Assembly: GCF_000744415.1 (NCBI RefSeq)
Contig: NZ_JQLW01000005.1
Span: 1-38,639, forward strand
Direction: 5' to 3'
From: Ghiorsea bivora
GTDB lineage: Bacteria; Pseudomonadota; Zetaproteobacteria; Mariprofundales; Mariprofundaceae
DNA length: 38,639 nt
Shown here: positions 6,894-21,481 of the stretch, one piece after another
Layout: each line of letters opens with the position of its first letter
Numbering within the stretch: position 1 is the first letter of the stretch
Notes under the pieces: model-generated
Databases searched by the model: none
The model's input: the letters and a program-made list of their open reading frames with translations, nothing else
Told to the model about the DNA's origin: nothing
Translations under genes and position numbers: made by a program

Positions 6894-7031
6894 GCCAAGT
6901 AAACCTTCTTATATAATGGATTACGGCGAAGCTTACGCTTTAGATTGTGCTTGTCATTACTCACCACAGAGAAACACAGAGTTTTAATGGCCGTCACTAC
7001 CCGCTCAGGCAGAAATCTATTGCACAAGTGG

Positions 7032-7546: not shown

Positions 7547-9031
7547 TTAATCTTGCCAAACAAGCACAGGTTTCCGTGCTGCTTGGGTTTCATCCAAGCG
7601 GCGGCGGATGGGTCGCATAGGTGCATCATGCAAGGCTTGGGTATCTCCTGCTTCGCATTGCGCTGCAATCTCAAGCATAGCATCACAAAATGAATCCAAT
7701 GTTTCTTTGGACTCCGTTTCCGTTGGTTCAATCAGCATCGCACCATGCACAATGAGTGGAAAATAAACCGTCATCGGATGGAAGCCCAAATCAATCAATC
7801 GTTTGGCAATATCCAAGGTTTTTACGCCATGTTTATTTTGCCATTCATCGGTGAGCAAACACTCATGTTTACACAAACCTTCAAACGGTACGTGATACAC
7901 ATCTTTAAGACGACTCAACACATAGTTGGCATTAAGCACTGCATCTTGGGCAATTTTGTGGATATGATTATGTCCAAATGCGGAAATATAAGCATTGGCG
8001 CGCATATACACGCCCGATTGCCCCAAGGTGCTCAATACTGTGCCAATGGATTGCTCATCTTCAGTCAACACAGTGTACACATCACCATGTTTTTCAATGC
8101 GCGGCACGGGTAAGAATGGTTTAAGTGTGTCGTTCACAGCCACTGGCCCTGCACCTGGTCCACCGCCACCATGCGGTGTTGAAAATGTTTTGTGCACATT
8201 GATATGCAAACAATCCAAACCCATATCACCAGGTCGCGCTACGCCAACAAGTGCATTCAAATTTGCACCATCACCATACACAAGCCCACCTGCATCATGC
8301 ACAAGCTGGCAAATTTCTTTGATGTCAGATTCAAATGTGCCCGCCGTGTTCGGGTTGGTCATCATGAGGGCAGCAACATCATCATCCAAATGTTTCTTCA
8401 ATTCATCAAGGTCGATGCGTCCATCTGCACCAGATTTGATTTCAACCGTGTACATACCACATAATGCTGCTGATGCAGGGTTGGTGCCGTGTGCTGAATC
8501 AGGCACAAGCACTTTTTTACGCTTTTGCTCACCACGCGCATCCAAACATTTGCGAATCATCATCAAACCCACAAGTTCGCCGTGCGCACCTGCTGCAGGT
8601 TGCAAAGTCACATCCGTAAAGCCTGAAATTTCAGCCAACCAACCTTGCAACTCATGCAATAAACCCAAAATACCCTGCACTGAATCTTCAGGTTGGTCGG
8701 GGTGTACATGCGCCAAACCTGGCAAACGGGCAATTTGTTCATTCACACGCGGATTGTATTTCATGGTGCAAGAACCCAGTGGATAAAAACCTGTTTCAAT
8801 GCCGTGATTCCATTGGCTTAAGCGCACAAAATGGCGAACTGTTTCAGGCTCGGATAATCCTGGAATATTGGCAGCCTTTTTACGTTTAAATGCATCCAAA
8901 CTACTTGGTGCGTTGCCTTGCACACCAGGTAGACTGATGGATTCAGGTGCTTCATGGGCATGTTCAAACAATAAAGGTTCTTCTTGCTGGATACCTGATG
9001 TGGCTGAATATTTATGCATGTTATCACTCAT
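7547..9031 (-). CDS. gcvPB: Glycine dehydrogenase (decarboxylating) subunit 2
   Basis: This is the C-terminal half of the split P-protein of the glycine cleavage system. It carries the PLP cofactor and decarboxylates glycine, passing the aminomethyl group to lipoyl-GcvH. The protein is 494 aa. The PLP lysine is K281 in NVHKTFSTPHGGGGPGAGPV. GSCTMKYNPRVNE and LQPAAGAHGELVGLMMIR are conserved P-protein segments. The ATG overlaps the gcvPA stop by four bases (ATGA), and GGAGG precedes it. This is the last gene of the long glc-gcv run. Confidence 0.96.
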   Translation of the reverse strand: MSDNMHKYSATSGIQQEEPLLFEHAHEAPESISLPGVQGNAPSSLDAFKRKKAANIPGLSEPETVRHFVRLSQWNHGIETGFYPLGSCTMKYNPRVNEQIARLPGLAHVHPDQPEDSVQGILGLLHELQGWLAEISGFTDVTLQPAAGAHGELVGLMMIRKCLDARGEQKRKKVLVPDSAHGTNPASAALCGMYTVEIKSGADGRIDLDELKKHLDDDVAALMMTNPNTAGTFESDIKEICQLVHDAGGLVYGDGANLNALVGVARPGDMGLDCLHINVHKTFSTPHGGGGPGAGPVAVNDTLKPFLPVPRIEKHGDVYTVLTEDEQSIGTVLSTLGQSGVYMRANAYISAFGHNHIHKIAQDAVLNANYVLSRLKDVYHVPFEGLCKHECLLTDEWQNKHGVKTLDIAKRLIDLGFHPMTVYFPLIVHGAMLIEPTETESKETLDSFCDAMLEIAAQCEAGDTQALHDAPMRPIRRRLDETQAARKPVLVWQD

Positions 9032-10374
9032 GATGCCACCTCCATTGCAGAGATATAGTCGTTGATGTCGGCACCCTCAATCATTTCTGTGGTTGCCACC
9101 AACAAATGTTTACCATCGGAATCTTTCTCAATGGTTTCCAGTGGAATACCTGCAAAAATGTCTTGTTTGCGAGCTTCTGCGATAAATGCATCACGTTTTT
9201 CTTTGCTTTCAAAACTTAATACGGTTTCATTGTAGTGTGCACCATCGGCTGCGCTCACAGAACTTGGTAACTTCGATACCAATAAGTCCAAAGCAGCAGC
9301 CGAATGATTGGCTACTGTTGCTAAACCTGCATCACCCATCAGCGTCATATACGTTGCAGCTGCAGTACACATCAAACCTTGGTTGGTACAAATATTCGAT
9401 GTCGCTTTTTCGCGGCGAATATGTTGTTCGCGGGTGGATAATGTAAGCACAAAACCACGTTTACCGTCAGCATCGGTGGTCAAACCACAAACACGCCCTG
9501 GCATTTGACGCAGATACTTCTGTTTACAAGCAAACACACCCAAATGTGGGCCACCAAACGCCATAGGAATACCCAACGCCTGCCCTGAACCCACCACAAT
9601 ATCAGCGCCATATGCACCCGGTGATTCAATCAAACCAAATGCACTCACATCAGAAAATGCGACCACCATCAAACATTTATTGGCATCACATGCTTCACGC
9701 AATGGTGCCAAATCATAAACAGAGCCATAGAAATCAGGGTATTGCACAATTACACATGCTGTTTTCTCATCAATCTCAGCAATCACTTTGCTTAAATCCG
9801 TGCCAAACTTACCCATGCCCACTTCAACATAGTCACCTTCAAGACGGGATAAATAGTTCTCAGTAACTCTGCGGTAGCGCGGATTCACTGAACCTGCAAT
9901 CACAGTACGCGTTTTACGCGTAACACGGCGCGCCATCAGTGCTGCTTCAGCCGTTGCCGTTGCTGCTTCATACATGGATGCGTTGGATACATCCATACCT
10001 GTAAGTCGTGCAATCATGGTTTGGTATTCAAACAAAGCTTGCAATGTGCCTTGGGCAATTTCTGGTTGATAAGGTGTGTAAGCAGTTAAAAACTCACCAC
10101 GCGAAATCACATAATCCACCACCGCAGGCACAAAATGATGATACGTACCGCCGCCTAAGAAACAGCGGGTATTGCCTGCATGCCTATTCTTTTCCGCCGC
10201 TTTGGTAAACTTTTTTACAATGCCCGCTTCAGACAAAGCATCAGGCAGATTAAGACTGCCTAGTTTGGTATGAAATTCACTAGGGATATCAGCAAACAGC
10301 TCCATAATATGGCTGTGTCCCATGCTTTCCAGCATGGCTTGTCTATCACTATCGGTATGGGGTAAATATCGCAT
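9028..10374 (-). CDS. gcvPA: Glycine dehydrogenase (decarboxylating) subunit 1
   Basis: This is the N-terminal half of the two-subunit glycine decarboxylase, which forms an alpha2beta2 complex with GcvPB. The protein is 448 aa, typical for the split form. It begins MRYLPHTDSDRQAMLESMG. Typical segments are GGGTYHHFVPAVVDYVISRGEF, TPYQPEIAQGTLQALFEYQT and LTLSTREQHIRREKATSNICTNQ. It has no PLP lysine of its own, as expected for this subunit. A GAGAG ribosome binding site precedes the ATG. The stop overlaps the gcvPB start. An imperfect inverted repeat lies between gcvH and this gene. Confidence 0.95.
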   Translation of the reverse strand: MRYLPHTDSDRQAMLESMGHSHIMELFADIPSEFHTKLGSLNLPDALSEAGIVKKFTKAAEKNRHAGNTRCFLGGGTYHHFVPAVVDYVISRGEFLTAYTPYQPEIAQGTLQALFEYQTMIARLTGMDVSNASMYEAATATAEAALMARRVTRKTRTVIAGSVNPRYRRVTENYLSRLEGDYVEVGMGKFGTDLSKVIAEIDEKTACVIVQYPDFYGSVYDLAPLREACDANKCLMVVAFSDVSAFGLIESPGAYGADIVVGSGQALGIPMAFGGPHLGVFACKQKYLRQMPGRVCGLTTDADGKRGFVLTLSTREQHIRREKATSNICTNQGLMCTAAATYMTLMGDAGLATVANHSAAALDLLVSKLPSSVSAADGAHYNETVLSFESKEKRDAFIAEARKQDIFAGIPLETIEKDSDGKHLLVATTEMIEGADINDYISAMEVAS

Positions 10375-10451: not shown

Positions 10452-10832
10452 TTAGTCGTCTAAAAATTCAGTATATTCTTCAGGGTTCATTAACTCAGCA
10501 GAAGCATTATTATCGCTAACCTTCACCTTAACAATCCAACCTGCCCCATAAGGGTCAGAGTTTACCAAGTCAGGCTCACCTTCTAGCGCTTCATTTACTT
10601 CAATCACTTCACCTGCCACTGGTGCATACACATCCGACACAGCTTTTACGGATTCAACAACACCATAAGCTTCTCCAGCATCTACACTGCGCCCCACATC
10701 AGGTAGCTCAACAAACACTATGTCGCCAAGTGCTTCTTGGGCATGGTCAGACACACCAAATGTTGCCGTATCACCTTCGATGCGCACCCATTCATGGTCT
10801 TTGGTATATTTCAAGTCCGTTGGTATTGACAT
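10452..10832 (-). CDS. gcvH: Glycine cleavage system H protein
   Basis: This is the lipoyl carrier that shuttles the aminomethyl intermediate among P, T and L proteins. The protein is 126 aa, normal for GcvH. The lipoylated lysine is K63 in GVVESVKAVSDVYAPVAG. The N-terminus YTKDHEWVRIEGD and the C-terminal PYGAGWIVKVK are typical. It starts one base after the gcvT stop, so the two are tightly coupled. No lipoamide dehydrogenase (L protein) gene is present in the window. Confidence 0.97.
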   Translation of the reverse strand: MSIPTDLKYTKDHEWVRIEGDTATFGVSDHAQEALGDIVFVELPDVGRSVDAGEAYGVVESVKAVSDVYAPVAGEVIEVNEALEGEPDLVNSDPYGAGWIVKVKVSDNNASAELMNPEEYTEFLDD

Positions 10833-10833
10833 A

Positions 10834-11928
10834 TTATTTCCTCACATTGGAACGCACAAATGGTGTTTTTGTACGTTCAGCCTCAATTTGTTTGCCGCGT
10901 ATTTCAACAGCTAATTGTCCTTCTGTCATGTGCTCAGGTTTCACATATGCCAAAGCCACGCCGCCACCTGCCAATGGTGAAAACATGCCCGATGTGATTT
11001 CACCGCTTTCTTCACCATCCACAAACACTTTATAATGTTCGCGTGGAATTCCGCGACCTACCAATTTCAAGGCAATCAACTTTTTCTGTGCGCCTTCTGC
11101 TTTGCGTTTTTCAACAGCTACTTTCCCAATAAAGTCGCCCTTATCCAATTTGGTAATCCACATTAATTTGGCTTCAACAGGGGTCACTACATCCGAAATT
11201 TCATGACCATAAAGGGCATAACCCATTTCTGTACGCAACATATCACGCGCAGCTAGACCAATCGGCACCGCACCTTGTTCAAGCAAAGCATTCCAAACAT
11301 CCACGGCAATACTGTTTGGGATATAAATTTCAAAACCATCTTCACCCGTATAACCCGTGCGCGACACAATGCCACCCGAACTGGAAATCTGACCTCTAGC
11401 AAACTTATAATAACCAATGGCTTCCAAATCAAAACCAACAATGGTTTGCAATGCAGCTTGTGCTTTTGCACCCTGCAATGCCAGCAATGTGGTGTCGTCA
11501 GATTCATCAGTGACGGTCACATCAAAATTCGCTGCCTCAGTCTGCAAATGCACCACATCTTTATAGCGATTCGCCGCATTGATGCACAAATAGTAGTTCT
11601 CATCATCGATTTTATAGGTGGTGATATCATCAATAAATGTACCCTGTTCGTTGAGCAATGCAGAATATTGCACCTGCCCATCCACAAGTTTGGACACATC
11701 ATTGGTGGTCACATATTGCAAGAAATTCAAAGCACCTTTGCCCTGAATACGAACTTGCCCCATATGTGTGATATCAAAAATACCCGCTTCGCCATCACGA
11801 ACCGCAGTATATTCTTTAAGGGCACCGTTTTTGTATTGCACAGGCAATTCATAACCCGCAAATGGTACGATTTTACCACCCAGCTTCACATGCTCATCAA
11901 AGAGTGGTGTTTTTAGTAAATCTGTCAT
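10834..11928 (-). CDS. gcvT: Glycine cleavage system T protein (aminomethyltransferase)
   Basis: It releases ammonia from aminomethyl-lipoyl-GcvH and transfers the one-carbon unit to tetrahydrofolate, giving 5,10-methylene-THF. The protein is 364 aa. It begins MTDLLKTPLFDEHVKLGGK. Diagnostic segments are DITHMGQVRIQGKGALNFLQ, SRTGYTGEDGFEIYIPN and ARDMLRTEMGYALYGHEI. The ATG has GGAG a few bases upstream. About 120 bases separate it from the aminotransferase gene upstream. That gap has foldable sequence but no glycine riboswitch that I can recognise. Confidence 0.97.
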   Translation of the reverse strand: MTDLLKTPLFDEHVKLGGKIVPFAGYELPVQYKNGALKEYTAVRDGEAGIFDITHMGQVRIQGKGALNFLQYVTTNDVSKLVDGQVQYSALLNEQGTFIDDITTYKIDDENYYLCINAANRYKDVVHLQTEAANFDVTVTDESDDTTLLALQGAKAQAALQTIVGFDLEAIGYYKFARGQISSSGGIVSRTGYTGEDGFEIYIPNSIAVDVWNALLEQGAVPIGLAARDMLRTEMGYALYGHEISDVVTPVEAKLMWITKLDKGDFIGKVAVEKRKAEGAQKKLIALKLVGRGIPREHYKVFVDGEESGEITSGMFSPLAGGGVALAYVKPEHMTEGQLAVEIRGKQIEAERTKTPFVRSNVRK

Positions 11929-12049: not shown

Positions 12050-13228
12050 TTATTCGCCGTATGATGCTAAAGTTGCTGCCATAGCTTTTTGAGCATCCAC
12101 ATTCGCGCCAACACGACCCAATACTTCACCCAATGCAGACACACATTTAAGTACATTATCTTTACGGCAAGCATAACCCATTAAACCAATACGCCATACT
12201 TTACCAGCCATTACACCAAGACCCGCACCAATTTCAAGGTTATAATCATTAAGCAACATACCACGCACTTGTGCATCATCCACACCATCAGGAATAGTCA
12301 CTGCATTTAATTGCGGCAAACGGTCTGCTTCAGGAACAACAAAGGTTAAACCCAAAGCTTCCAATCCTGCTTTGAGTGCATTGTGATGTTTGGCATGACG
12401 CGCCCATGCATTTTCTAACCCTTCATCTTGCAATAAAACCAAGGATTCATGCAATGCATACAATGCATTAATTGGTGCAGTATGATGGTAGGCACGTTTG
12501 GCACCTTTACCCCAATAACCCATGACAAGATTCAAGTCCAAAAACCAGCTTTGTACTTTGGTTTTACGATTTTGAATACGTTCAACCGATGCTTGGCTAA
12601 ATGACACAGGTGATAAACCTGGCGTACAAGACAAACATTTTTGTGTGCCCGAATAAATCGCATCAATGCCCCAATCATCCACACGAAGTTCTGTACCACC
12701 CAATGAAGTCACTGCATCCACAATAGTCAAACAATCATGGGCATGAGCCAAATCGCACATCGCTTTCACATCTGTCGTTGCACCCGTTGAAGTTTCAGCA
12801 TGCACAAAAGCAACCGTTGTTGCTTCAGGATGCGCTTTAAGTGCAGCCTCCAGTTTCGCAGGGTCACAAGCTTGCCCCCATTCATCTTCAACCATGACTG
12901 CAGTAGCACCACAACGTTCCACGTTTTCTTTCATGCGTCCGCCAAATACACCATTTTGGCATACAATCACTGTATCTCCTGCTTCAACAAGGTTCACAAA
13001 ACATGTTTCCATACCAGCAGATCCTGGTGCTGACACGGGAATGGTTAGTTCATTTTTGGTTTGAAAGGCATATTGCAAAAGCCCTTTCATTTCATCCATC
13101 ATTTGCACAAACAAAGGATCCAAATGACCAATCGTTGGACGACTCATGGCTTCTAAAATACGTGGGTTCACATCTGAAGGACCTGGTCCCATCAGTGTAC
13201 GTTGTGGTGGGTGAAATGATGATGTCAT
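12050..13228 (-). CDS. Serine/alanine-glyoxylate aminotransferase (class V)
   Basis: This is a PLP enzyme that transfers an amino group to glyoxylate to make glycine. Serine (yielding hydroxypyruvate) or alanine (yielding pyruvate) is the donor. The protein is 392 aa. The N-terminus carries LMGPGPSDVNPRILEAMSRP. The PLP lysine is K197 in YSGTQKCLSCTPGLSPVSF, with VDAVTSLGGTELRVDDWGID just before it. This parallels human AGT ([27 protein letters not shown]). An AGAGG ribosome binding site precedes the ATG. Neighbouring glycolate oxidase and glycine cleavage genes support a glyoxylate-to-glycine role. The donor amino acid cannot be fixed from sequence alone. Phosphoserine or aspartate donors are less likely here. 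Confidence 0.9.
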   Translation of the reverse strand: MTSSFHPPQRTLMGPGPSDVNPRILEAMSRPTIGHLDPLFVQMMDEMKGLLQYAFQTKNELTIPVSAPGSAGMETCFVNLVEAGDTVIVCQNGVFGGRMKENVERCGATAVMVEDEWGQACDPAKLEAALKAHPEATTVAFVHAETSTGATTDVKAMCDLAHAHDCLTIVDAVTSLGGTELRVDDWGIDAIYSGTQKCLSCTPGLSPVSFSQASVERIQNRKTKVQSWFLDLNLVMGYWGKGAKRAYHHTAPINALYALHESLVLLQDEGLENAWARHAKHHNALKAGLEALGLTFVVPEADRLPQLNAVTIPDGVDDAQVRGMLLNDYNLEIGAGLGVMAGKVWRIGLMGYACRKDNVLKCVSALGEVLGRVGANVDAQKAMAATLASYGE

Positions 13229-13315: not shown

Positions 13316-13603
13316 TCACGTCGGCCAAAGTTGCATACCTAATACCGTGAACTGCACAGTGAATGCTAAACAAAGCATGGTTGCCAAGCCATAAAGCAAT
13401 GTGAAACCTACGGCTCGAATCTGCTGAATACCAATATAAAGCCCTGCAATAGATACGAAAAATGCAAATTCATTCATCACCAACAAACTCAAAAGCGGCA
13501 CTGCCCTTGCACCATTATTGTCAACCATATTGCCTAAAACAATAATGGGCATAAATGTTAAACTTAAAACCACTGCGATATATGGAAAGTAAATCTTTTT
13601 CAT
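13316..13603 (-). CDS. Small multi-pass membrane protein, unknown function
   Basis: This 95-aa protein has no recognised family. It has three hydrophobic segments, about residues 5-25, 35-58 and 65-90, with short polar links. The ATG at 13603 (MKKIYFPYIAVVL) is chosen because GAGGAAGAG precedes it. An upstream GTG in the same frame lies inside the BASS gene and has no such site. The ATG is about ten bases after the BASS carrier stop, so the two are probably co-translated. It could be a small partner of the carrier, but nothing in the sequence proves this. Confidence 0.6.
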   Translation of the reverse strand: MKKIYFPYIAVVLSLTFMPIIVLGNMVDNNGARAVPLLSLLVMNEFAFFVSIAGLYIGIQQIRAVGFTLLYGLATMLCLAFTVQFTVLGMQLWPT

Positions 13604-13613
13604 GTTCTCTTCC

Positions 13614-14549
13614 TCATACAGGCAAAACCACACCCGTTTTTTGCCGCCTTAACACGGCCGTCAAAGCCGCTGTGGTTACAATGCACCACACTGCAAACAG
13701 AGCTGCGGGCAATGCCGTCTGTGGCTCAAAATGAGCCAGTGCCAAAGCCACACCCAACCCCGCATTTTGCATACCAATCTCAATGACCAAGGTGATTTTA
13801 TAGCTGGTTTTAAAATGAAACAGTGTCGCCACCACATAACCAAATACATAACCCAAAGCATTCACCATGATAACCAACGCAGCCACCCAAGCCGTCAGCT
13901 GCGAAATTCGCTCCTGATTGGCTGCCACAGCATAACTACAAATGATAATAATGGCGATAGATGCCAATGCAGGCGCAACATCTTCAATCTGATGATGCCA
14001 AGTTTCAAGCTTGGGTTTAAGCAACATCGCCACAAACAAGGGTAAAACAACAATCAAAAAAATCGTTTGCATCATAGGCCAAAACGGAATCGGCAACCAC
14101 ACGCCCCCTAACCACTGCATTAAGGCTGGTGTTAACAGTGGTGAAAGCATGGTTGCAATCAATGTCATACCAATAGAAAAAGCAACAGCACCGCCTGCAA
14201 GGTATGTCATCACATTGCTTGCCATCGCACCTGGCGCACAACCTACAATAATAAAGCCCAAAGCTAATGCCGCTGGATAATCCAAAGCCACCAACACGGA
14301 TGCCGCAGCAAAACCCAAGAGCGGCATGATTGTAAACTGACTTATAACACCAATGGTAATATATTGTGGCCTACGCAGCGCTTGTTTGGCTTCGTCTAAG
14401 GGCAATACCAACCCCACAGCAAACATGGTAATCGCAAATAACCACAAGAAATAATCTTTAACCAACAAAAACACAGGTGGATAAAAATATGCCACAACAG
14501 CACAAGCCAAGGTTAAGGCTGCCATATGATTGGAAATCCATTTGAACAT
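13614..14549 (-). CDS. BASS-family (bile acid:sodium symporter-like) organic anion carrier
   Basis: This is a sodium-coupled or sodium-linked carrier of the SBF/BASS fold, 311 aa with about ten hydrophobic segments. Two family signatures are clear. GCAPGAMASNVMTYLAGG (about 103-120) forms one discontinuous helix crossover. IGMQNAGLGVALALAHF (about 260-276) forms the other, which contributes to the sodium and substrate sites. Plant BASS proteins move pyruvate (BASS2) and glycolate (BASS6). This gene lies inside a glycolate/glyoxylate/glycine gene run, so a small organic acid such as glycolate or glyoxylate is a reasonable guess. A GGAG ribosome binding site precedes the ATG. It follows the kinase stop by four bases. 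Confidence 0.85.
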   Translation of the reverse strand: MFKWISNHMAALTLACAVVAYFYPPVFLLVKDYFLWLFAITMFAVGLVLPLDEAKQALRRPQYITIGVISQFTIMPLLGFAAASVLVALDYPAALALGFIIVGCAPGAMASNVMTYLAGGAVAFSIGMTLIATMLSPLLTPALMQWLGGVWLPIPFWPMMQTIFLIVVLPLFVAMLLKPKLETWHHQIEDVAPALASIAIIIICSYAVAANQERISQLTAWVAALVIMVNALGYVFGYVVATLFHFKTSYKITLVIEIGMQNAGLGVALALAHFEPQTALPAALFAVWCIVTTAALTAVLRRQKTGVVLPV

Positions 14550-14553
14550 GTGG

Positions 14554-16650
14554 TTAATGCTCCTTAGCTACAGGAAAGAACACCTCAAAAGTAGTACCTT
14601 TGCCGACCTTTGATACCACATGTAACCCACCATGATGCCCCCGCATAATACCCAAAACAGCACTCATGCCTAAACCTCTACCCGTAAACTTGGTTGTAAA
14701 AAAAGGGTCAAATATTTTTTGTAACGTAACTGCATCCATGCCGCAACCCGTATCCTCAACCGTTAACTTCACAAACACCCCAGCTTGCATCGCTTCACCT
14801 TCAACCAATGCTTCAATCATCATTTGATTCAAATCAACCTTACTTGTTTGTACCCGCACCACACCTTTATGTTCCGAAATGGCTTCAGATGCATTGATAA
14901 TCAAGTTCATAATCACCTGTTGAATTTGCCCTACATCACCCTCAACTTTAGGTAAATCAGTCATCAAACGCATCTCAACTTTAACCGATTTATTCACTGT
15001 CGCCGATAACAGCTGCGATATACCCTTCACTGTTTGTGAAATATCCAATCGTTTCACAAAAAATGCACCCTTGCCAGAATAAGCAAGCATTTGCTCACAA
15101 AGTGCCGCAGCATTTTCACTGGCTTTGACAACCTGTTGCAAATGTTGCTGTAACTTCGGCTCATGTTTCAACTTTTGCATGGCCATACCCGCATGCCCCA
15201 TAATCACAGTCAATAAATTATTAAAGTCATGCGCAATGCCTCCTGCCAATACACCCAAACTTTCCAAGCGTTGCGTATGCTCAGATTGTTTCTGTAAACG
15301 TTTTCGCTCAGTTACATCTCTCGCAAACAACGTGAATAAGGTCTGTTTCCCCACCCCATACACTTCGGATATACTAACCTCTGTGCATTTATCCTTTTCT
15401 GCCAGTAAACCAGCCTTCACCTCTTGCACCCCCTGCAACAACATGGGATGTTTATGCACAAAAGCGGCAAAACTCGGCTCTTCATGCGCCCATTGAGGAA
15501 AAGCAAACAAGTCATACACATATTTACCTTGTAGCTTATAACCGCGGCATGTAAACAGTTTCTCCGCAGCAGGATTTACATCCAACACCTTGCCTTGATG
15601 GTCAATATTAATTACAGCATCCGAGGCCATCTCCAAAATCGCGTGTTTTCTTTCCTCGCTACCTACCAATTGGCGCAAAGTGAACACCAATAAAATAGTT
15701 AAACCAATACCCAAAGCACCACTTAAGTAAAAAAACAAAAAATTACGATCAAACCAATACACAACATGCGTCGTGTTTACCGCAATATCCTGCCCTAAAA
15801 TATGCGGTGTTGTTTGCTCAAGCATAAAACCCGACCACCATGCAGGTTCTGTCACAGAAGCAAAATTAAAAGTAAACGGGCGACCTTCTGCAGGCTGATA
15901 GACGACAACAGAGACACTGGTATCATTCGGTACTGACGCAGGCGCCAACAACGTCTCTATATCCAAACCCATTCCAAGCACGGCATTCACCAAGTCTGTT
16001 CGATTTTGCTGAAAATAGGGGTCTGATACACCAACATAACCTGCATACAATGCCTCAAACATCCATAAACGCGGTATTTGTTCATCCAAGCGCATCACCA
16101 GCGATATCACCTCATCACCTGTAATCACATCATGTAAGGTTTCCGCCAATAAAGGTTGTCCTAACAAATCTAAACCCAACAGTGGCACATGAGATACATC
16201 ATAAGGCTCTACAAAACGAATCGGAAAATAATACGCACGTGCTGGTGAAGGTTGCCATGTCTTACCATCATCATTACCGATTTGGTAATCAATAAAACCT
16301 GCATCATGCATCTCATTCTCAAATGAATCACGCTGCTGTTGTGAAATTTTGGGAGCAAACACCACTGTTGAAACGAAATTGTACTTGGCAAACAAGTGTT
16401 CAGCATTCAAACGTAAAGTATCACTTTCAATACCATTTGCCGCATACAAGGAAGCCGTCAATCCACTCAACTCATTGCGTATTTGTGCCATACGCATTTC
16501 AATATGTTCAACCACATGATTATGGTATTGTTCAAACTTATTTTTTTCTAAACCCAATAGATACATAAAAGCAAAAAACATCATACCCAGTGTTAACACT
16601 GCACCCAGTATCAGGCTAATCAGCAACACTGGGTGGGATTCTGTTTTCAT
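14554..16650 (-). CDS. CHASE-PAS sensor histidine kinase
   Basis: This is a membrane sensor kinase of 698 aa. The order is a first membrane helix (about 9-32), an extracytoplasmic CHASE-like domain (about 60-290, with YYFPIRFVEPY and GLDLLGQPLLAETL) and a second helix (about 304-327). Then come a PAS domain (about 335-450) and an H box LAGGIAHDFNNLLTVIMGH with phospho-accepting H474. The catalytic domain has QVIMNLIINASEA, VEDTGCGMD and GRGLGMSAVLGIMRGHHGG. There is no receiver domain, and no response regulator gene is found in the window. The ATG overlaps the stop of the periplasmic binding protein gene by four bases (ATGA), which points to a ligand-sensing pair. Confidence 0.92.
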   Translation of the reverse strand: MKTESHPVLLISLILGAVLTLGMMFFAFMYLLGLEKNKFEQYHNHVVEHIEMRMAQIRNELSGLTASLYAANGIESDTLRLNAEHLFAKYNFVSTVVFAPKISQQQRDSFENEMHDAGFIDYQIGNDDGKTWQPSPARAYYFPIRFVEPYDVSHVPLLGLDLLGQPLLAETLHDVITGDEVISLVMRLDEQIPRLWMFEALYAGYVGVSDPYFQQNRTDLVNAVLGMGLDIETLLAPASVPNDTSVSVVVYQPAEGRPFTFNFASVTEPAWWSGFMLEQTTPHILGQDIAVNTTHVVYWFDRNFLFFYLSGALGIGLTILLVFTLRQLVGSEERKHAILEMASDAVINIDHQGKVLDVNPAAEKLFTCRGYKLQGKYVYDLFAFPQWAHEEPSFAAFVHKHPMLLQGVQEVKAGLLAEKDKCTEVSISEVYGVGKQTLFTLFARDVTERKRLQKQSEHTQRLESLGVLAGGIAHDFNNLLTVIMGHAGMAMQKLKHEPKLQQHLQQVVKASENAAALCEQMLAYSGKGAFFVKRLDISQTVKGISQLLSATVNKSVKVEMRLMTDLPKVEGDVGQIQQVIMNLIINASEAISEHKGVVRVQTSKVDLNQMMIEALVEGEAMQAGVFVKLTVEDTGCGMDAVTLQKIFDPFFTTKFTGRGLGMSAVLGIMRGHHGGLHVVSKVGKGTTFEVFFPVAKEH

Positions 16651-17594
16651 GGTGAAACTTTCACTGCTTTAAATAATATCTCCGCAGGAAGATGTATATT
16701 TGCTTTGTTTAATAACTTAAGATTTACAAACGTTTCCCAACGTCGATTGGCAACCACAGGAATGCGACGCAATGGTTTACCTTGCAACACATGTATTGCC
16801 AGCTGCACCATCCAGTCCCCTTGCTCTTGCGCAATTTTGGTCATCGCAAACATGGTGTATGGTGTCATAAAGTCATAGGTGGTTACAGTGAATGTCTGTG
16901 CATGTTGTTGCACAAACTGTTGCACCAGTTGCTTATCCCAATCTGCAATGCCAGCAACATTATTGAGCACAATCATGTCTGCCGATTGTCCAGCCAAATA
17001 CGCTTGTTTCCAAGCCTGCACATTATCAACAAACATCGCTCGTACTTGCACACCTTCTTGGGCATATATCTTTTTCAACCAATGAAATTCTTTGCTATCC
17101 GTCGCCACACCTTTAACACCAATAAAAAACACATCATTTACATCATCCAAACTTTCACGTGCTGCGCGCAAAATGGCTTGAATAGGCGAGACTTCAATCA
17201 TACCCGTTGCATTAGAATAAGGATAACCATAAGCCTCAGCGGTCCAGTTGATACCGCAAAACACAAAAGGGATAGCGTTACCTTGGTAGTAGGGTTTCAC
17301 CAAATATTTGGATGCATTGTCATCGGAGACCAAAACAACATCTGGGTTAATGCGGGTAATAAGCTGTCTTGCTTCCAGCGCCTTTTGCTTGCCATAAACT
17401 TCTGAAGTATGCCGTTTGGTATCCATATAAAATACCGTTAAATGACACTGGCCTTGCAAACCTTGGCGCACCTCTTGTTCAATCGCATCACTCCAAGCGT
17501 AACCCGCATGGTAAGAATTGATATATACACACTCCTTAGCTTGAACTGCGCTTGATAGCACACAAAAAGCCAACAGTAGGAGTGCATGTTTCAT
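16647..17594 (-). CDS. Periplasmic ABC-type substrate-binding protein (PF04392-like)
   Basis: This is a secreted binding protein of 315 aa. It has a clear signal peptide, MKHALLLLAFCVLSSAVQA, cleaved after AQA-type residues near position 19. The mature part has the two-lobe periplasmic binding fold of the ABC_sub_bind family, with INSYHAGYAWSDAIEQ, INPDVVLVSDDNASKYL, IPFVFCGINWT and TTYDFMTPYTMFAMTKIAQEQG. No ABC permease or ATPase gene is near. Instead the histidine kinase follows with a four-base overlap, so it probably presents a ligand to that sensor rather than feeding transport. It begins two bases after the glcF stop. The ligand is unknown. Confidence 0.85.
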   Translation of the reverse strand: MKHALLLLAFCVLSSAVQAKECVYINSYHAGYAWSDAIEQEVRQGLQGQCHLTVFYMDTKRHTSEVYGKQKALEARQLITRINPDVVLVSDDNASKYLVKPYYQGNAIPFVFCGINWTAEAYGYPYSNATGMIEVSPIQAILRAARESLDDVNDVFFIGVKGVATDSKEFHWLKKIYAQEGVQVRAMFVDNVQAWKQAYLAGQSADMIVLNNVAGIADWDKQLVQQFVQQHAQTFTVTTYDFMTPYTMFAMTKIAQEQGDWMVQLAIHVLQGKPLRRIPVVANRRWETFVNLKLLNKANIHLPAEILFKAVKVSP

Positions 17595-17596
17595 AT

Positions 17597-18808
17597 TTAA
17601 CCCTCGGTATTAAGCAGCGTAACCCAATGTACTATTTCTACGTTAGCACCTGCGGCCAAATGATGCAAACACCCTATATTGGCTGTGGCTATGATTTGCG
17701 GCTTATGTTGCATAAGGTTCATCAACTTATTATCGCGTAAAGTTTGTGAAAGTTTAGGCTGCAGTATTGAATAGGTTCCTGATGAACCACAGCACAAATG
17801 CGCATCGGCAACAGGCATCAGCTCGTAACCCAAACCTGTTAATATGCTTTCCACACTGCCATTTAATTGTTGCCCATGTTGCAAAGTGCATGGTGCATGA
17901 AAGGCAATACGCTTGGTTTGAGTCAATTTGAACTGACTCAAATCTTCTTCGCTCAAAACTTGCACAATATCTTTGGCTTTATCGGAGATAATCTTGGCAT
18001 TTTCTGCATATTCAGGATCATCTTTAAGCAGGTGACCGTATTCTTTAATTTCTAAAGCACATGCACTTGCCGTGGATAAAATAGCTTCCACACCCAATTC
18101 AACAAACGGCATCCATAAATCAATATTTAAGCGTACGCGTTTGAGCGCTGCATCTTTTGCATTCAAATGATTTTCTACTGCACCGCAACATTGCGCTTGC
18201 AGAAGTCGCAATGTTTGAATACCCAATTTATCCAAAACATGCGCTGCTGCCACATCAATTTCAGGCGACATGGCGGGTTGCACGCAACCTTCAATCAATA
18301 AAACTTTTCTTAAATGCTCTTTTTTAGGGAAACCTACGGTTTTTTTCGATTTTGGTATCTTTTGCTTAAGTTCTAATGGCAAAACAGGTCGAAACAGTCG
18401 CCCTAAACCCAAAAGCGTGGAAAACAAGGTTCTGCTGGGCAACACTTTAACCAATGCACTACGCAACAACCTTTGCTTGAATGGACGTTGCACTTTTTCT
18501 TCCACCATGGCTTTACCAATCTCTGCAAGATGTGCGAATTCCACGCCCGATGGGCAAGTGGTTTCACAAGCCCTACATGTGAGACATCTATCCAAATGTT
18601 GCTGTGTTCTTTCGGTAACCTCACCGCCTTCCAACATTTCTTTAATCAAATAAATACGACCGCGCGGACCATCCAACTCGTCACCCAACGCTTGATAGGT
18701 TGGGCAGGTTGCAGTACAAAAACCGCAATGCACACAAGAGCGTAAAATATCATTGGCTTCTTTGCCTTGTGGTGTATCTAAAATGGATTGTGGAATATTG
18801 GTTTGCAT
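17597..18808 (-). CDS. glcF: Glycolate oxidase iron-sulfur subunit
   Basis: GlcF is the electron-transfer subunit of membrane-associated glycolate oxidase and passes electrons toward the quinone pool. The protein is 403 aa. Two ferredoxin-type 4Fe-4S motifs are present, C25-C28-C31-C35 (CVHCGFCTATCP) and C75-C78-C81-C85 (CLTCRACETTCP). Two CCG motifs follow in the C-terminal half (QCCGAVENHL and CCGSSGTYSILQP). The ATG overlaps the glcE stop by one base (TAATG). With glcE and glcD it makes the standard three-subunit enzyme. Confidence 0.95.
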   Translation of the reverse strand: MQTNIPQSILDTPQGKEANDILRSCVHCGFCTATCPTYQALGDELDGPRGRIYLIKEMLEGGEVTERTQQHLDRCLTCRACETTCPSGVEFAHLAEIGKAMVEEKVQRPFKQRLLRSALVKVLPSRTLFSTLLGLGRLFRPVLPLELKQKIPKSKKTVGFPKKEHLRKVLLIEGCVQPAMSPEIDVAAAHVLDKLGIQTLRLLQAQCCGAVENHLNAKDAALKRVRLNIDLWMPFVELGVEAILSTASACALEIKEYGHLLKDDPEYAENAKIISDKAKDIVQVLSEEDLSQFKLTQTKRIAFHAPCTLQHGQQLNGSVESILTGLGYELMPVADAHLCCGSSGTYSILQPKLSQTLRDNKLMNLMQHKPQIIATANIGCLHHLAAGANVEIVHWVTLLNTEG

Positions 18809-19881
18809 TATAAATCCTTATACATGCGCCCAGCATTTAAAATACCTTTGGGGTCAAAGCTATGTTTGAGCTTTTGATGCAACTTCATCAGTGCAGGTTG
18901 CAATGGAGCAAACACTTCTTCTGTTCTATCACCACCACGCATGATTCTGGCATGCCCACCCAAAGCTTTGGCATACGTTTGCACGCGTTCAAAAGGCAAG
19001 TTCGATTTCAACCAACGCTGCGCACCACCCCAGCCGACAAACCAATCACTGGTTTGCGTGTCATCAAGCAGTTCAAATGAAGCAGCAGGCGGCACAGACA
19101 ATCGATACAACACCTTATCCGTTTCAAAGAAATCCAGTTGATGTTCCCTCAAATCTTTCCAGAAGTTTTTACCATCATCAAATAAACTACCACCAATCTC
19201 TTGCATGCTTCGCGCCACAGCCGATGGTGTACCACAAATCCTAAAGTAACCCATATTACCATCTGCGCACATTGCCGTCACGGGCAACGGTGTACCAGCC
19301 CAATGGTTCATCAGTTTTATGGCTTGCGCAAAACCTGCATCAATCACTACAGTCTGCTCTGCCAAACGATGGGGTAAAATTTTGAGCGATATATCAAGCA
19401 AAACACCCAATGTACCAAGGCTTCCTGCCATCAAGCGGGACACATCAAAACCCGCCACATTTTTCATCACTTCGCCACCAAACCTTAGCTTCTCACCTTT
19501 ACCATTCAGCATGGTGCAACCCAATACATAATCACGACATGAGCCTGCATAAGGTCTTCTTGGCCCTGAAAAGTTACATGCAACCGTACCACCAATGGTC
19601 GCCTTTTCTCCAAAATATGGTGGATCAAAGGGTAAACGCTGACCATGTTCATCCAAGGCTACGGCAATATCCGCTAACCTTGTTCCAGCACGTACCGTAA
19701 TCACCAATTCGCTAGGCATATAATTCACCACACCTTGGTGTTCACGAACATGTAAAAGTTCACCCACAGGCTCTCGCCCATACCACGATTTACTATCACC
19801 ACCGATAATGTTTAATGCAGTATCTGAGGCATAAGCTTCTTGCACTTGCCTCTGTAATTCCAGCGTCTTATCACTCATCAT
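18808..19881 (-). CDS. glcE: Glycolate oxidase FAD-binding subunit GlcE
   Basis: GlcE is the second flavin subunit of glycolate oxidase. The protein is about 357 aa, near the family norm. The FAD-binding PCMH-type domain shows ELVITVRAGTRLADIAVALDEHG, GGTVACNFSGPRRPYAGSCRDYVLG and NVAGFDVSRLMAGSLGTLGVLL. The C-terminus ends FDPKGILNAGRMYKDL. Two adjacent ATGs (19881 and 19878) compete as starts, and a TTG lies just before. The ribosome binding site is weak, so translation may depend on coupling with glcD. A short GCAGAGAACGCAAAG-like repeat fills the gap to glcD. Confidence 0.93.
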   Translation of the reverse strand: MMSDKTLELQRQVQEAYASDTALNIIGGDSKSWYGREPVGELLHVREHQGVVNYMPSELVITVRAGTRLADIAVALDEHGQRLPFDPPYFGEKATIGGTVACNFSGPRRPYAGSCRDYVLGCTMLNGKGEKLRFGGEVMKNVAGFDVSRLMAGSLGTLGVLLDISLKILPHRLAEQTVVIDAGFAQAIKLMNHWAGTPLPVTAMCADGNMGYFRICGTPSAVARSMQEIGGSLFDDGKNFWKDLREHQLDFFETDKVLYRLSVPPAASFELLDDTQTSDWFVGWGGAQRWLKSNLPFERVQTYAKALGGHARIMRGGDRTEEVFAPLQPALMKLHQKLKHSFDPKGILNAGRMYKDL

Positions 19882-19896
19882 CAATACTCGGCGAAA

Positions 19897-19923: not shown

Positions 19924-21378
19924 TTAAAACCGCTCCAGTTCAGGGTGTGGCAATTGTCCATTATGCACATGCATTCGCCCAAGCTCTGCGCAGCGATGCA
20001 AGGTTGGCACTGCTTTACCAGGGTTCAACAAACCCTCGGCATCAAATGCATCTTTCACCGCATGAAACTGACTTAATTCCAGTACTCCAAATTGCACACA
20101 CATCGAATCCAGTTTTTCTACGCCAACACCATGCTCACCTGTAATCGTACCACCCACCTGCACACATAATTGTAAAATCTTTTGACCAAAGGCCTCTGTT
20201 TTCTCTAGTTCACCTGATTTATTGGCATCATATAAAATTAAGGGATGCATATTGCCATCACCTGCATGAAATACATTGGCAACAGGCAAACCAAATTCAT
20301 CAGACCACGCTGATATTTGCTTTAAAACTTCTGCCAGTCTTGCTTTGGGAATAGTGCCATCCATACAATAATAATCAGGAGCCAAACGCCCTACCGCAGG
20401 AAACGCTGCTTTTCGCCCTGCCCAAAATTGCAAACGTTGCTTTTCATCTTTAGACACTTGGGTATCTACCGCACCTGCTTTTCTTAAAACAATTTCAACC
20501 TTTTCGATAAAATCCATAACACCATGTTCTGTGCCATCAATTTCACACAATACAATGGCCTGCGCATCCGTAGGGTAACCCACCTTGGCATAGGCTTCAG
20601 CAGCTTGAATAGCCAAATGATCCATCATCTCTAAACCCGCAGGCACAATACCTTCAGAAATAATATTACATACAGCCTGACCTGCTTTTTCAATATCATC
20701 AAACACAGCCATACAAACCTTGGCGACTTCAGGTTTAGGCAAAAGTTTCACTGTCACCTCCACCATGACCCCCAACAAACCTTCCGAACCATGCATTAAT
20801 GCCAGTAAATCATAACCTGCATCATCCAAGTTCTTTCCACCCAGTTCAATCAACTCACCATCAATCGTAAGAAATTTTAAACCCAAAACATTATGCACGG
20901 TCAAACCGTACTTTAGACAATGTACACCGCCTGAATTTTCCGCCACGTTGCCACCAATCGTGCACGCAATTTGTGATGACGGGTCTGGGGCATAATACAA
21001 ACCATGCGTTGCCACAGCTTCGGAAATTGCAAGGTTTCGCACGCCAGGCTGTACAGTCGCTGTACGATTAGCCAAATCAACATCCAATATCTTATTAAAC
21101 TTGGCTAATGATAAGACCACAGCACCTTGGGTTGGCATCGCACCCCCAGCCAAACCTGTACCTGCGCCTCGCGCAATAATCGGCGTATGATGCTGTTGGC
21201 ACAGTTGAATAATAGCTTGTGCTTGCGTTATGGTTTCAGGCAAGGCAACAGCAAGTGGCAGCCCACGGTACACCGACAAACCATCACATTCATAGGGTTT
21301 CAACTCTTCTTCAGAGGTCAGTAAGGATGATGCTGGCAAAAGCTTTGCCAACAATGATAACAACGGTTGTTCTGTCAC
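19924..21378 (-). CDS. glcD: Glycolate oxidase FAD-linked subunit GlcD
   Basis: GlcD is the catalytic flavoprotein that oxidises glycolate (or D-lactate in relatives) to the 2-oxoacid. The protein is 484 aa. The FAD domain shows TPIIARGAGTGLAGGAMPTQG, PDPSSQIACTIGGNVAENSGG and GSEGLLGVMVEVTVKLLPKP. The FAD-oxidase C domain has NVFHAGDGNMHPLILYD and GGTITGEHGVGVEKL, ending in DAEGLLNPGKAVPT. The start is GTG at 21378 with GGGAGG just upstream. It heads the minus-strand glc-gcv run. The gap before it also holds the terminator of the DUF481 gene. Adjacent glcE and glcF favour glycolate over lactate as substrate. Confidence 0.95.
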   Translation of the reverse strand: MTEQPLLSLLAKLLPASSLLTSEEELKPYECDGLSVYRGLPLAVALPETITQAQAIIQLCQQHHTPIIARGAGTGLAGGAMPTQGAVVLSLAKFNKILDVDLANRTATVQPGVRNLAISEAVATHGLYYAPDPSSQIACTIGGNVAENSGGVHCLKYGLTVHNVLGLKFLTIDGELIELGGKNLDDAGYDLLALMHGSEGLLGVMVEVTVKLLPKPEVAKVCMAVFDDIEKAGQAVCNIISEGIVPAGLEMMDHLAIQAAEAYAKVGYPTDAQAIVLCEIDGTEHGVMDFIEKVEIVLRKAGAVDTQVSKDEKQRLQFWAGRKAAFPAVGRLAPDYYCMDGTIPKARLAEVLKQISAWSDEFGLPVANVFHAGDGNMHPLILYDANKSGELEKTEAFGQKILQLCVQVGGTITGEHGVGVEKLDSMCVQFGVLELSQFHAVKDAFDAEGLLNPGKAVPTLHRCAELGRMHVHNGQLPHPELERF

Positions 21379-21458
21379 CTGACCTCCCTTAATCTTGTGA
21401 AAGCTTATGCAACAGTCAGGCTATTGTCGATACACACAATATAGGGTTTTTACGGCAC

Positions 21459-21481
21459 AAAAAAGGGCGGCAAAGCCACCC
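21459..21481 (-). terminator. Rho-independent terminator after the DUF481 gene
   Basis: On the minus strand GGGTGGC-TTT-GCCGCCC forms a 7-base stem with one G-T pair, and six Ts follow. It lies about 40 bases downstream of the DUF481 stop and before glcD. It separates the two transcripts. Confidence 0.82.

Follow-up and report, generated by a model that had tools for sequence, protein, structure and literature searches.

Why should genes for a secreted binding protein and a membrane histidine kinase lie together inside a run of genes for glycolate and glycine metabolism? The question is raised by a 38,639-nt stretch of contig NZ_JQLW01000005.1 of the iron-oxidizing bacterium Ghiorsea bivora, referred to below, at its full length, as the window. 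An initial annotation, made from the sequence alone, described a PF04392-type periplasmic binding protein (PBP) and a CHASE-PAS kinase whose genes overlap by four bases, and proposed that the PBP presents a ligand to the kinase, with glycolate, glyoxylate or an amino acid as the natural guess for the signal. Taken together, the data described below make the pair look like a two-part receptor type, widespread yet little described, situated in the glycolate-to-glycine cluster of this bacterium. Both open reading frames (ORFs) were verified, and the description of the two proteins and of their overlap was borne out by Pfam matches and by the ATGA read at the junction. The features of the pair are as follows.

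16647..17594, minus strand: secreted PF04392-type PBP, 315 amino acids (aa); Pfam over cut-off
14554..16650, minus strand: CHASE-PAS-HisKA-HATPase sensor histidine kinase, 698 aa; Pfam and motifs
16647..16650, minus strand: stop/start overlap of the two genes, ATGA, 4 nt; read from the sequence
15895..16413, minus strand: CHASE domain of the kinase, residues 80–252; Pfam and model

The binding protein and the kinase

The PBP matches PF04392 (ABC_sub_bind) with an E value of 5.9e-9 (36 bits, cut-off 25.9), and its residues 1–20 resemble a signal peptide as seen in the sequence, no predictor having been run. Its nearest named relative, from a Ghiorsea metagenome-assembled genome, is 84% identical. 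The AlphaFold2 model (predicted local distance difference test, pLDDT, 95.5) is closest to the solved folds 6hnj (Z 24.8), 3lkv (22.8), 3lft (22.4), and 6hni (21.9), the next row being at 17.2. These structures represent CD0873 (6hnj/6hni), VC_1101 (3lkv), and TrpX (SP1069; 3lft), which are PF04392-type proteins like the PBP; their folds match at Z 22–25 and their profiles at E 1.1e-10 to 7.2e-7, with just 11–17% identity in the structural alignments.

The CHASE domain of the kinase (E 1.8e-11; 44.6 bits, cut-off 25) is followed by PAS, HisKA, and HATPase_c, and the Pfam scan found no receiver domain in this protein. All five kinase motifs are present, namely H (AHDFNN, 473), N (NLIINAS, 582), G1 (DTGCGM, 633), F (FDPFFTTK, 647), and G2 (GRGLGMS, 657), and His474 is the likely phospho-acceptor. 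Judged by its position between hydrophobic helices at residues ~9–34 and ~306–330, the CHASE domain is predicted to be extracytoplasmic. Its model (pLDDT 89.5) is closest to PcrK (6k62, Z 22.9) and AHK4 (3t4s, Z 22.4), which are, like the window kinase, histidine kinases with a CHASE fold (6k62 and 3t4j). The structures of AHK4 show that it takes cytokinins directly, whereas the window kinase has an adjacent PBP gene; the CHASE domain of PcrK is likewise known as a direct sensor, and no binding protein gene is known to lie beside the gene of either. The CHASE model is also matched (Z 15.8) by the second half of PDB entry 5ere, an extracellular ligand-binding receptor of 540 residues; this entry is perhaps a natural fusion of a binding domain and a CHASE-like domain with a solved structure.

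Recurrence of the PF04392–CHASE pairing

PF04392 and CHASE each have a single match in the 2.15-Mb genome, and because these two matches lie side by side, their adjacency is beyond chance. Among the 16 genomes of the genus that were searched (genomes, loci, and contigs carry our handles G, L, and C), CHASE was found only in G000, which is the window genome, G011, and G012. PBP relatives in genome contigs gave 180 confirmed matches, the best 80 of which (loci L013–L092) were analyzed. The transducer next to the PBP was domain-scanned in 65 of these loci, 60 times downstream and five times upstream. The unscanned loci comprise seven in which the contig ends at most 0.8 kb past the PBP (L024, L038, L053, L075, L089, L090, and L091), two with kinase-like ORFs that the start filter missed (L066 and L078), and six that lack a 400-aa ORF downstream and in which upstream ORFs were left out (L079, L081, L082, L083, L084, and L086).

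A CHASE domain was present in 53 of the 65 scanned transducers (31/31 in a first batch and 22/34 in a second). The outputs were mixed, with HATPase_c in 17 and 12 transducers of the two batches, GGDEF in 13 and 18, and EAL in 12 and 18; chemoreceptor signaling domains occurred in two transducers of the second batch. By first-start ORF calls, the start of the downstream transducer falls no more than 30 nt from the end of the PBP in 47 of the 60 cases, and in 33 the two ORFs overlap. At least seven changes between histidine kinase (HK) and GGDEF output are required on a quickly built tree of the PBP, and well-supported branches force five changes for the HK label and four for GGDEF. Distances between PBPs correlate with those between CHASE domains (r = 0.76, 39 pairs; none of 2000 permutations reached this value), also for pairs with differing outputs (r = 0.64). 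The pairing was met in Zeta-, Gamma-, and Alphaproteobacteria and in Magnetococcales, and in G048 and G051 a related binding domain and PAS-kinase sequence (the kinase part read by eye) share one ORF. Adjacency, output swapping, and the distance pattern are what a dedicated PBP–CHASE contact would be expected to produce. Two observations weigh against such a contact: 12 of the 65 transducers gave no CHASE match, Cache and MCP domains occurring in that batch, and species relatedness or shared ancestry contributes in part to the distance correlation. On the strength of adjacency, output swapping, and fused relatives, a binding protein–CHASE partnership nevertheless seems highly probable, and the presence of CHASE across exchanged outputs supports, by comparison, the proposal that the PBP presents a ligand to the kinase, which it most likely does at the CHASE domain. 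Binding-domain relatives at L005, L006, L008, and L009, from two other proteobacterial genomes, lie in ORFs of 937–1169 aa; a PAS-kinase portion was read in the first two of these loci.

Receptors of this general kind are known. In BctC–BctE and NspS–MbaA, as described in PMC9602780, a binding protein acts on the extracytoplasmic domain of a membrane receptor, as proposed here, and the outputs of binding-protein-activated receptors include both kinases and cyclic di-GMP (c-di-GMP) enzymes. Another such receptor, XylFII–LytSN (structure 5xsd), is listed among the structure matches of the PBP model. At the level of the genes alone, the window resembles these systems in that the binding protein gene adjoins the receptor gene; it differs from all three in using a PF04392 PBP with a CHASE receptor, and no cognate transporter was seen. 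By analogy, the pair would work like the known binding-protein-activated receptors and would be new by its PF04392–CHASE pairing. In the AruS/PA4985 system of Pseudomonas aeruginosa, a binding protein gene likewise lies near a gene for a kinase with a CHASE-type domain, with families that differ from those of the window pair (CHASE5 and SBP_bac_8); according to PMC11113362, the sensor domain was insoluble and an interaction could not be demonstrated. The main text of PMC7804937, in which a CHASE-PAS-DGC-EAL protein was studied, nowhere uses the term "binding protein." Among the open-licence matches listed, in the portions available, we found no description of a PF04392–CHASE pairing or of a two-component glycolate sensor. 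If the pairing is true, CHASE kinases and CHASE-GGDEF-EAL proteins, dozens of them in all, should be treated not as direct sensors but jointly with the neighboring binding protein, and a small soluble protein would then suffice for finding their ligands.

The proposed mechanism is that the secreted PBP would close on a small extracytoplasmic ligand, that the loaded PBP would dock on the CHASE domain and thereby change kinase activity, and that the kinase would phosphorylate a response regulator encoded elsewhere, since it lacks the C-terminal receiver seen in its relatives. As a whole, this two-part receptor is our best explanation of the locus, held with evenly balanced confidence. In one alternative, the PBP serves a transporter, which could be a distant ABC importer or the SBF-family carrier encoded 4 nt downstream of the kinase gene, and signal detection by CHASE or PAS needs no binding protein. 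The closeness of the SBF gene and the direct-sensing CHASE domains of AHK4 (structures with cytokinins) and PcrK speak for this arrangement. However, SBF carriers are not known to need binding proteins; CHASE transducers adjoin the PBP in unrelated loci in whose fetched flanks no SBF homologue was found, and we consider this alternative improbable. Nor did the scan of 31 other proteins of the window turn up an ABC permease or ATPase, which agrees with the initial annotation; this search was confined to the window and passed over 5 of 38 non-overlapping ORFs, mostly short or at the edge. That a cytoplasmic PAS domain is the main input, for redox or a cofactor, and that the periplasmic pair merely modulates it, seems very improbable. 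The window kinase does contain PAS, and PAS families are frequent among the neighbor transducers, but CHASE was found in 31 of 31 transducers of the first batch against at most 23 for any single PAS family, and PAS copy number is unequal between the window and G128 kinases.

Possible ligand and possible link to the glycolate-to-glycine pathway

The pair lies within a run of genes on the minus strand, as listed here.

19924..21378, minus strand: glcD, first gene of the run; NCBIfam 782 bits, below the cut-off of 897
18808..19884, minus strand: glcE; NCBIfam over cut-off
17597..18808, minus strand: glcF, 2 nt before the PBP gene; NCBIfam over cut-off
13614..14549, minus strand: SBF/BASS-family transporter, 4 nt after the kinase gene; Pfam SBF over cut-off
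13316..13633, minus strand: conserved 105-aa ORF between SBF and AGXT; no Pfam match
12050..13228, minus strand: class V aminotransferase, named AGXT from its context; passes no equivalog cut-off
10834..11928, minus strand: gcvT; NCBIfam over cut-off
10452..10832, minus strand: gcvH; NCBIfam over cut-off
9028..10374, minus strand: gcvPA; NCBIfam over cut-off
7547..9031, minus strand: gcvPB; NCBIfam over cut-off

The order glcD-glcE-glcF-PBP-kinase-SBF-AGXT-gcvT-gcvH-gcvPA-gcvPB, with its tight spacing around the pair, places the pair inside a two-carbon (C2) run, as the initial annotation had stated. Judging by the spacing, the pair is very probably co-transcribed with glcDEF and gcv. Elsewhere, the window genome has one RuBisCO match.

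Whether this placement reflects function was assessed in 78 Zetaproteobacteria genomes, many of them incomplete so that absences are soft, taking the PBP at E <= 1e-20 and GlcE over its cut-off. The window PBP belongs to a clade of eight genomes (G000, G011, G128, G102, G101, G104, G107, and G105; support 100/100), and the same clade minus G105 and G128 has a support of 99 in a 56-row PBP tree. Some of these genomes are also among the loci above, the contigs being assumed to be the same because their lengths are equal (L013/G011, L015/G104, L016/G101, L017/G102, and, beyond the clade, L031/G121) or because the match positions nearly agree (L014/G107); the class table uses G handles only. All three GlcE-bearing genomes of the clade (G000, G011, and G128) have the pair within the glc run. 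In G011, it lies between glcF and SBF, as in the window, and in G128, which is of another genus and has a PBP of only 57% identity, the order is glcE-glcF-PBP-kinase-AGXT. G102 (95% complete) has PBP-kinase-folD-AGXT-gcvT-gcvH-gcvPA, with folD assigned by eye, and zero GlcE match. The kinase thus lies 0–2 genes upstream of AGXT in three pair lineages (window/G011, G128, and G102), and because G102 has no GlcE match, the common factor would be AGXT rather than glycolate oxidase. The PBP tree does not resolve the deepest branchings within the clade, and the kinase tree groups G102 with the genomes in which the pair adjoins a pepA-like gene; ancestral retention and repeated gain both fit.

Several observations weigh against a role of the pair in this pathway. 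In three members of the clade (G101, G104, and G107), the pair adjoins a gene that by eye looks like pepA, while the G105 contig terminates at the PBP. The fetched flanks of the 75 wider loci (L018–L092), short in some cases, contain no glc, SBF, AGXT, or gcv gene at E <= 1e-5; a GlcF-like 23% match in L051 was not counted as a C2 gene. A GlcE homologue was found in the fetched flanks of none of the 80 loci, L013 holding only the end of glcF. Relatives within the genus have the operon without the pair, other genes following glcF in all eight genomes readable downstream of it (G001, G002, G004, G006, G008, G009, G010, and G015), with SBF following directly in G004 and G015; in G003 and G007 the contig breaks off at glcF, and G005, G012, G013, and G014 have no clear GlcF. 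Elsewhere, G017 has glcDEF-AGXT without the pair, and in G023, whose glcDEF-AGXT is at 1.35 Mb, a 43% pair lies separately at 1.96 Mb. Across the class, the PBP was found in 12 and GlcE in 21 of the 78 genomes, both in four (G000, G011, G023, and G128), a co-occurrence that is not significant (4/12 versus 17/66, Fisher p = 0.72) and failed as support for a C2 role. GlcE was over the cut-off in 21 genomes among those of 38 of the 80 chosen loci, a figure without a background rate. Finally, Rubisco-derived glycolate would form in the cytoplasm, whereas the sensor faces the periplasm.

The solved relatives of the PBP bear on the ligand. According to PMC6816091, the amino acids bound by CD0873, VC_1101, and SP1069 are tyrosine, phenylalanine, and tryptophan; the three proteins grip the amino and acid groups in a common mode, and two residues select the side chain. 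In our own mapping by residue number and sequence alignment, these selecting positions (Ala/Glu and Tyr/Gln) correspond here to mostly N/T/S and A/P, the Tyr position being Ala/Pro, and for this reason an aromatic ligand is not implied. E134 of the PBP is invariant (56/56), and its aligned counterpart in the solved amino acid–binding relatives is an Asp. Together with the ligands of these relatives, it gives a hint that the ligand may be amino acid–like. Such a signal fits better than glycolate, since amino acids are what the closest solved structures contain and G102 gave no GlcE match; glycolate is not favored over amino acid–like ligands.

The C2 link is partly supported; a glycolate-pathway reading is possible and limited to one clade. 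The pair may instead be a general PBP–CHASE receptor for an unrelated ligand that arrived or was retained in the C2 operon for expression only, with its regulon elsewhere. The wider loci, the pepA-side genomes, the eight genus genomes with no pair adjoining glcF, and the lack of co-occurrence all favor this explanation, which we nevertheless rate as somewhat unlikely in view of the repeated position 0–2 genes before AGXT and of the retention of the pair in the glc run by every GlcE-bearing genome of the clade. That, in the Mariprofundaceae clade, an amino acid–like compound from the glyoxylate/glycine/serine node would be the signal, with an output that adjusts the glycolate-to-glycine operon, is plausible, if somewhat short of probable. 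The fullest statement, that Mariprofundaceae recruited a PF04392–CHASE co-receptor, from a family with exchangeable kinase or c-di-GMP outputs, to sense a photorespiratory/glycine-node metabolite in the periplasm and to control this operon, is tentative and rather unlikely. No earlier membrane two-component sensor is known for the glycolate-to-glycine pathway. If the link is true, glycolate and glycine salvage in autotrophic iron oxidizers would be run in response to a metabolite sensed outside the cytoplasm. This would contrast with GlcC and GlcR, which control glcDEF and are, according to PMC11323563, GntR-family DNA-binding regulators and not membrane sensors; Pfam found a GntR-type DNA-binding domain in neither the PBP nor the kinase. 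The word "glycolate" is absent from the two Zetaproteobacteria papers queried, PMC6443915 among them.

Candidate partner regulators and neighboring features

The kinases of clade relatives end in a receiver domain, identified by Pfam in G128 and G101, by the receiver motif in G104 and G107, and by eye in G102, whereas in the window and in G011 the ATPase domain is the last domain of the kinase. As the initial annotation had noted, no response regulator is nearby: none of the 57 receiver-domain matches of the genome falls in the window, the nearest on the same contig being at 79 kb. Neighbors were read for 49 of these matches with a home-made kinase profile, leaving out eight in ORFs of 731–920 aa. 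The best lead is a single-receiver protein (C9:20868-21320, equal to L199:968-1420) that shares 51% identity with regulators encoded close to the pair in G101, G104, and G105, which makes it a candidate partner of the window kinase; the assignment is tentative, as its gene also lies divergently beside that of another hybrid kinase. Its family, found near a PBP–CHASE pair in three relatives, has a Cys-containing C-terminal tail. Two NarL-type and one NtrC-type DNA-binding regulators with no kinase immediately adjacent are further candidates. In the suggested search by co-occurrence, the orphan NarL-type regulator C10:162001 is present in 16/16 genus genomes and hence uninformative, and C6:261353, present in 5/16 (E <= 1e-40; both pair-bearing genomes plus G003, G005, and G006), is a weak candidate.

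A plasmid search with the PBP–kinase pair as query gave zero matches. Sigma-54 sites occur in the window at chance level (62 matches versus 60.75 expected), one site with a single mismatch (21336–21350, minus strand) lying inside the start of the glcD ORF. Between positions 7000 and 22400, there were 17 promoter-like sites versus 32.3 in shuffles and 23 terminator-like sites versus 15.5. A GC hairpin followed by a T run, seen by eye at about 21450–21480 (minus strand) in the gap between the DUF481 gene and glcD and not listed by the terminator scan, looks like a terminator and would delimit the glc run.

In G006 (L155), three ORFs downstream of glcF share the same starting protein sequence, which suggests repeated mobile-element insertions breaking the glc run. 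The 105-aa ORF at 13316–13633 is 79% identical in G015 and 75% in G010. An SBF/BASS gene (PanS-like, under the cut-off) lies within the glc-AGXT run of G004, G015, G009, and G010 and is inverted in G008; the window protein itself scores 165.7 bits against PanS, below the cut-off of 400, and panBCD lie divergently in the window, beyond the DUF481 gene. Plant BASS6 transports glycolate, and the SBF protein encoded at 13614–14549 is a possible candidate for a glycolate or pantoate carrier.

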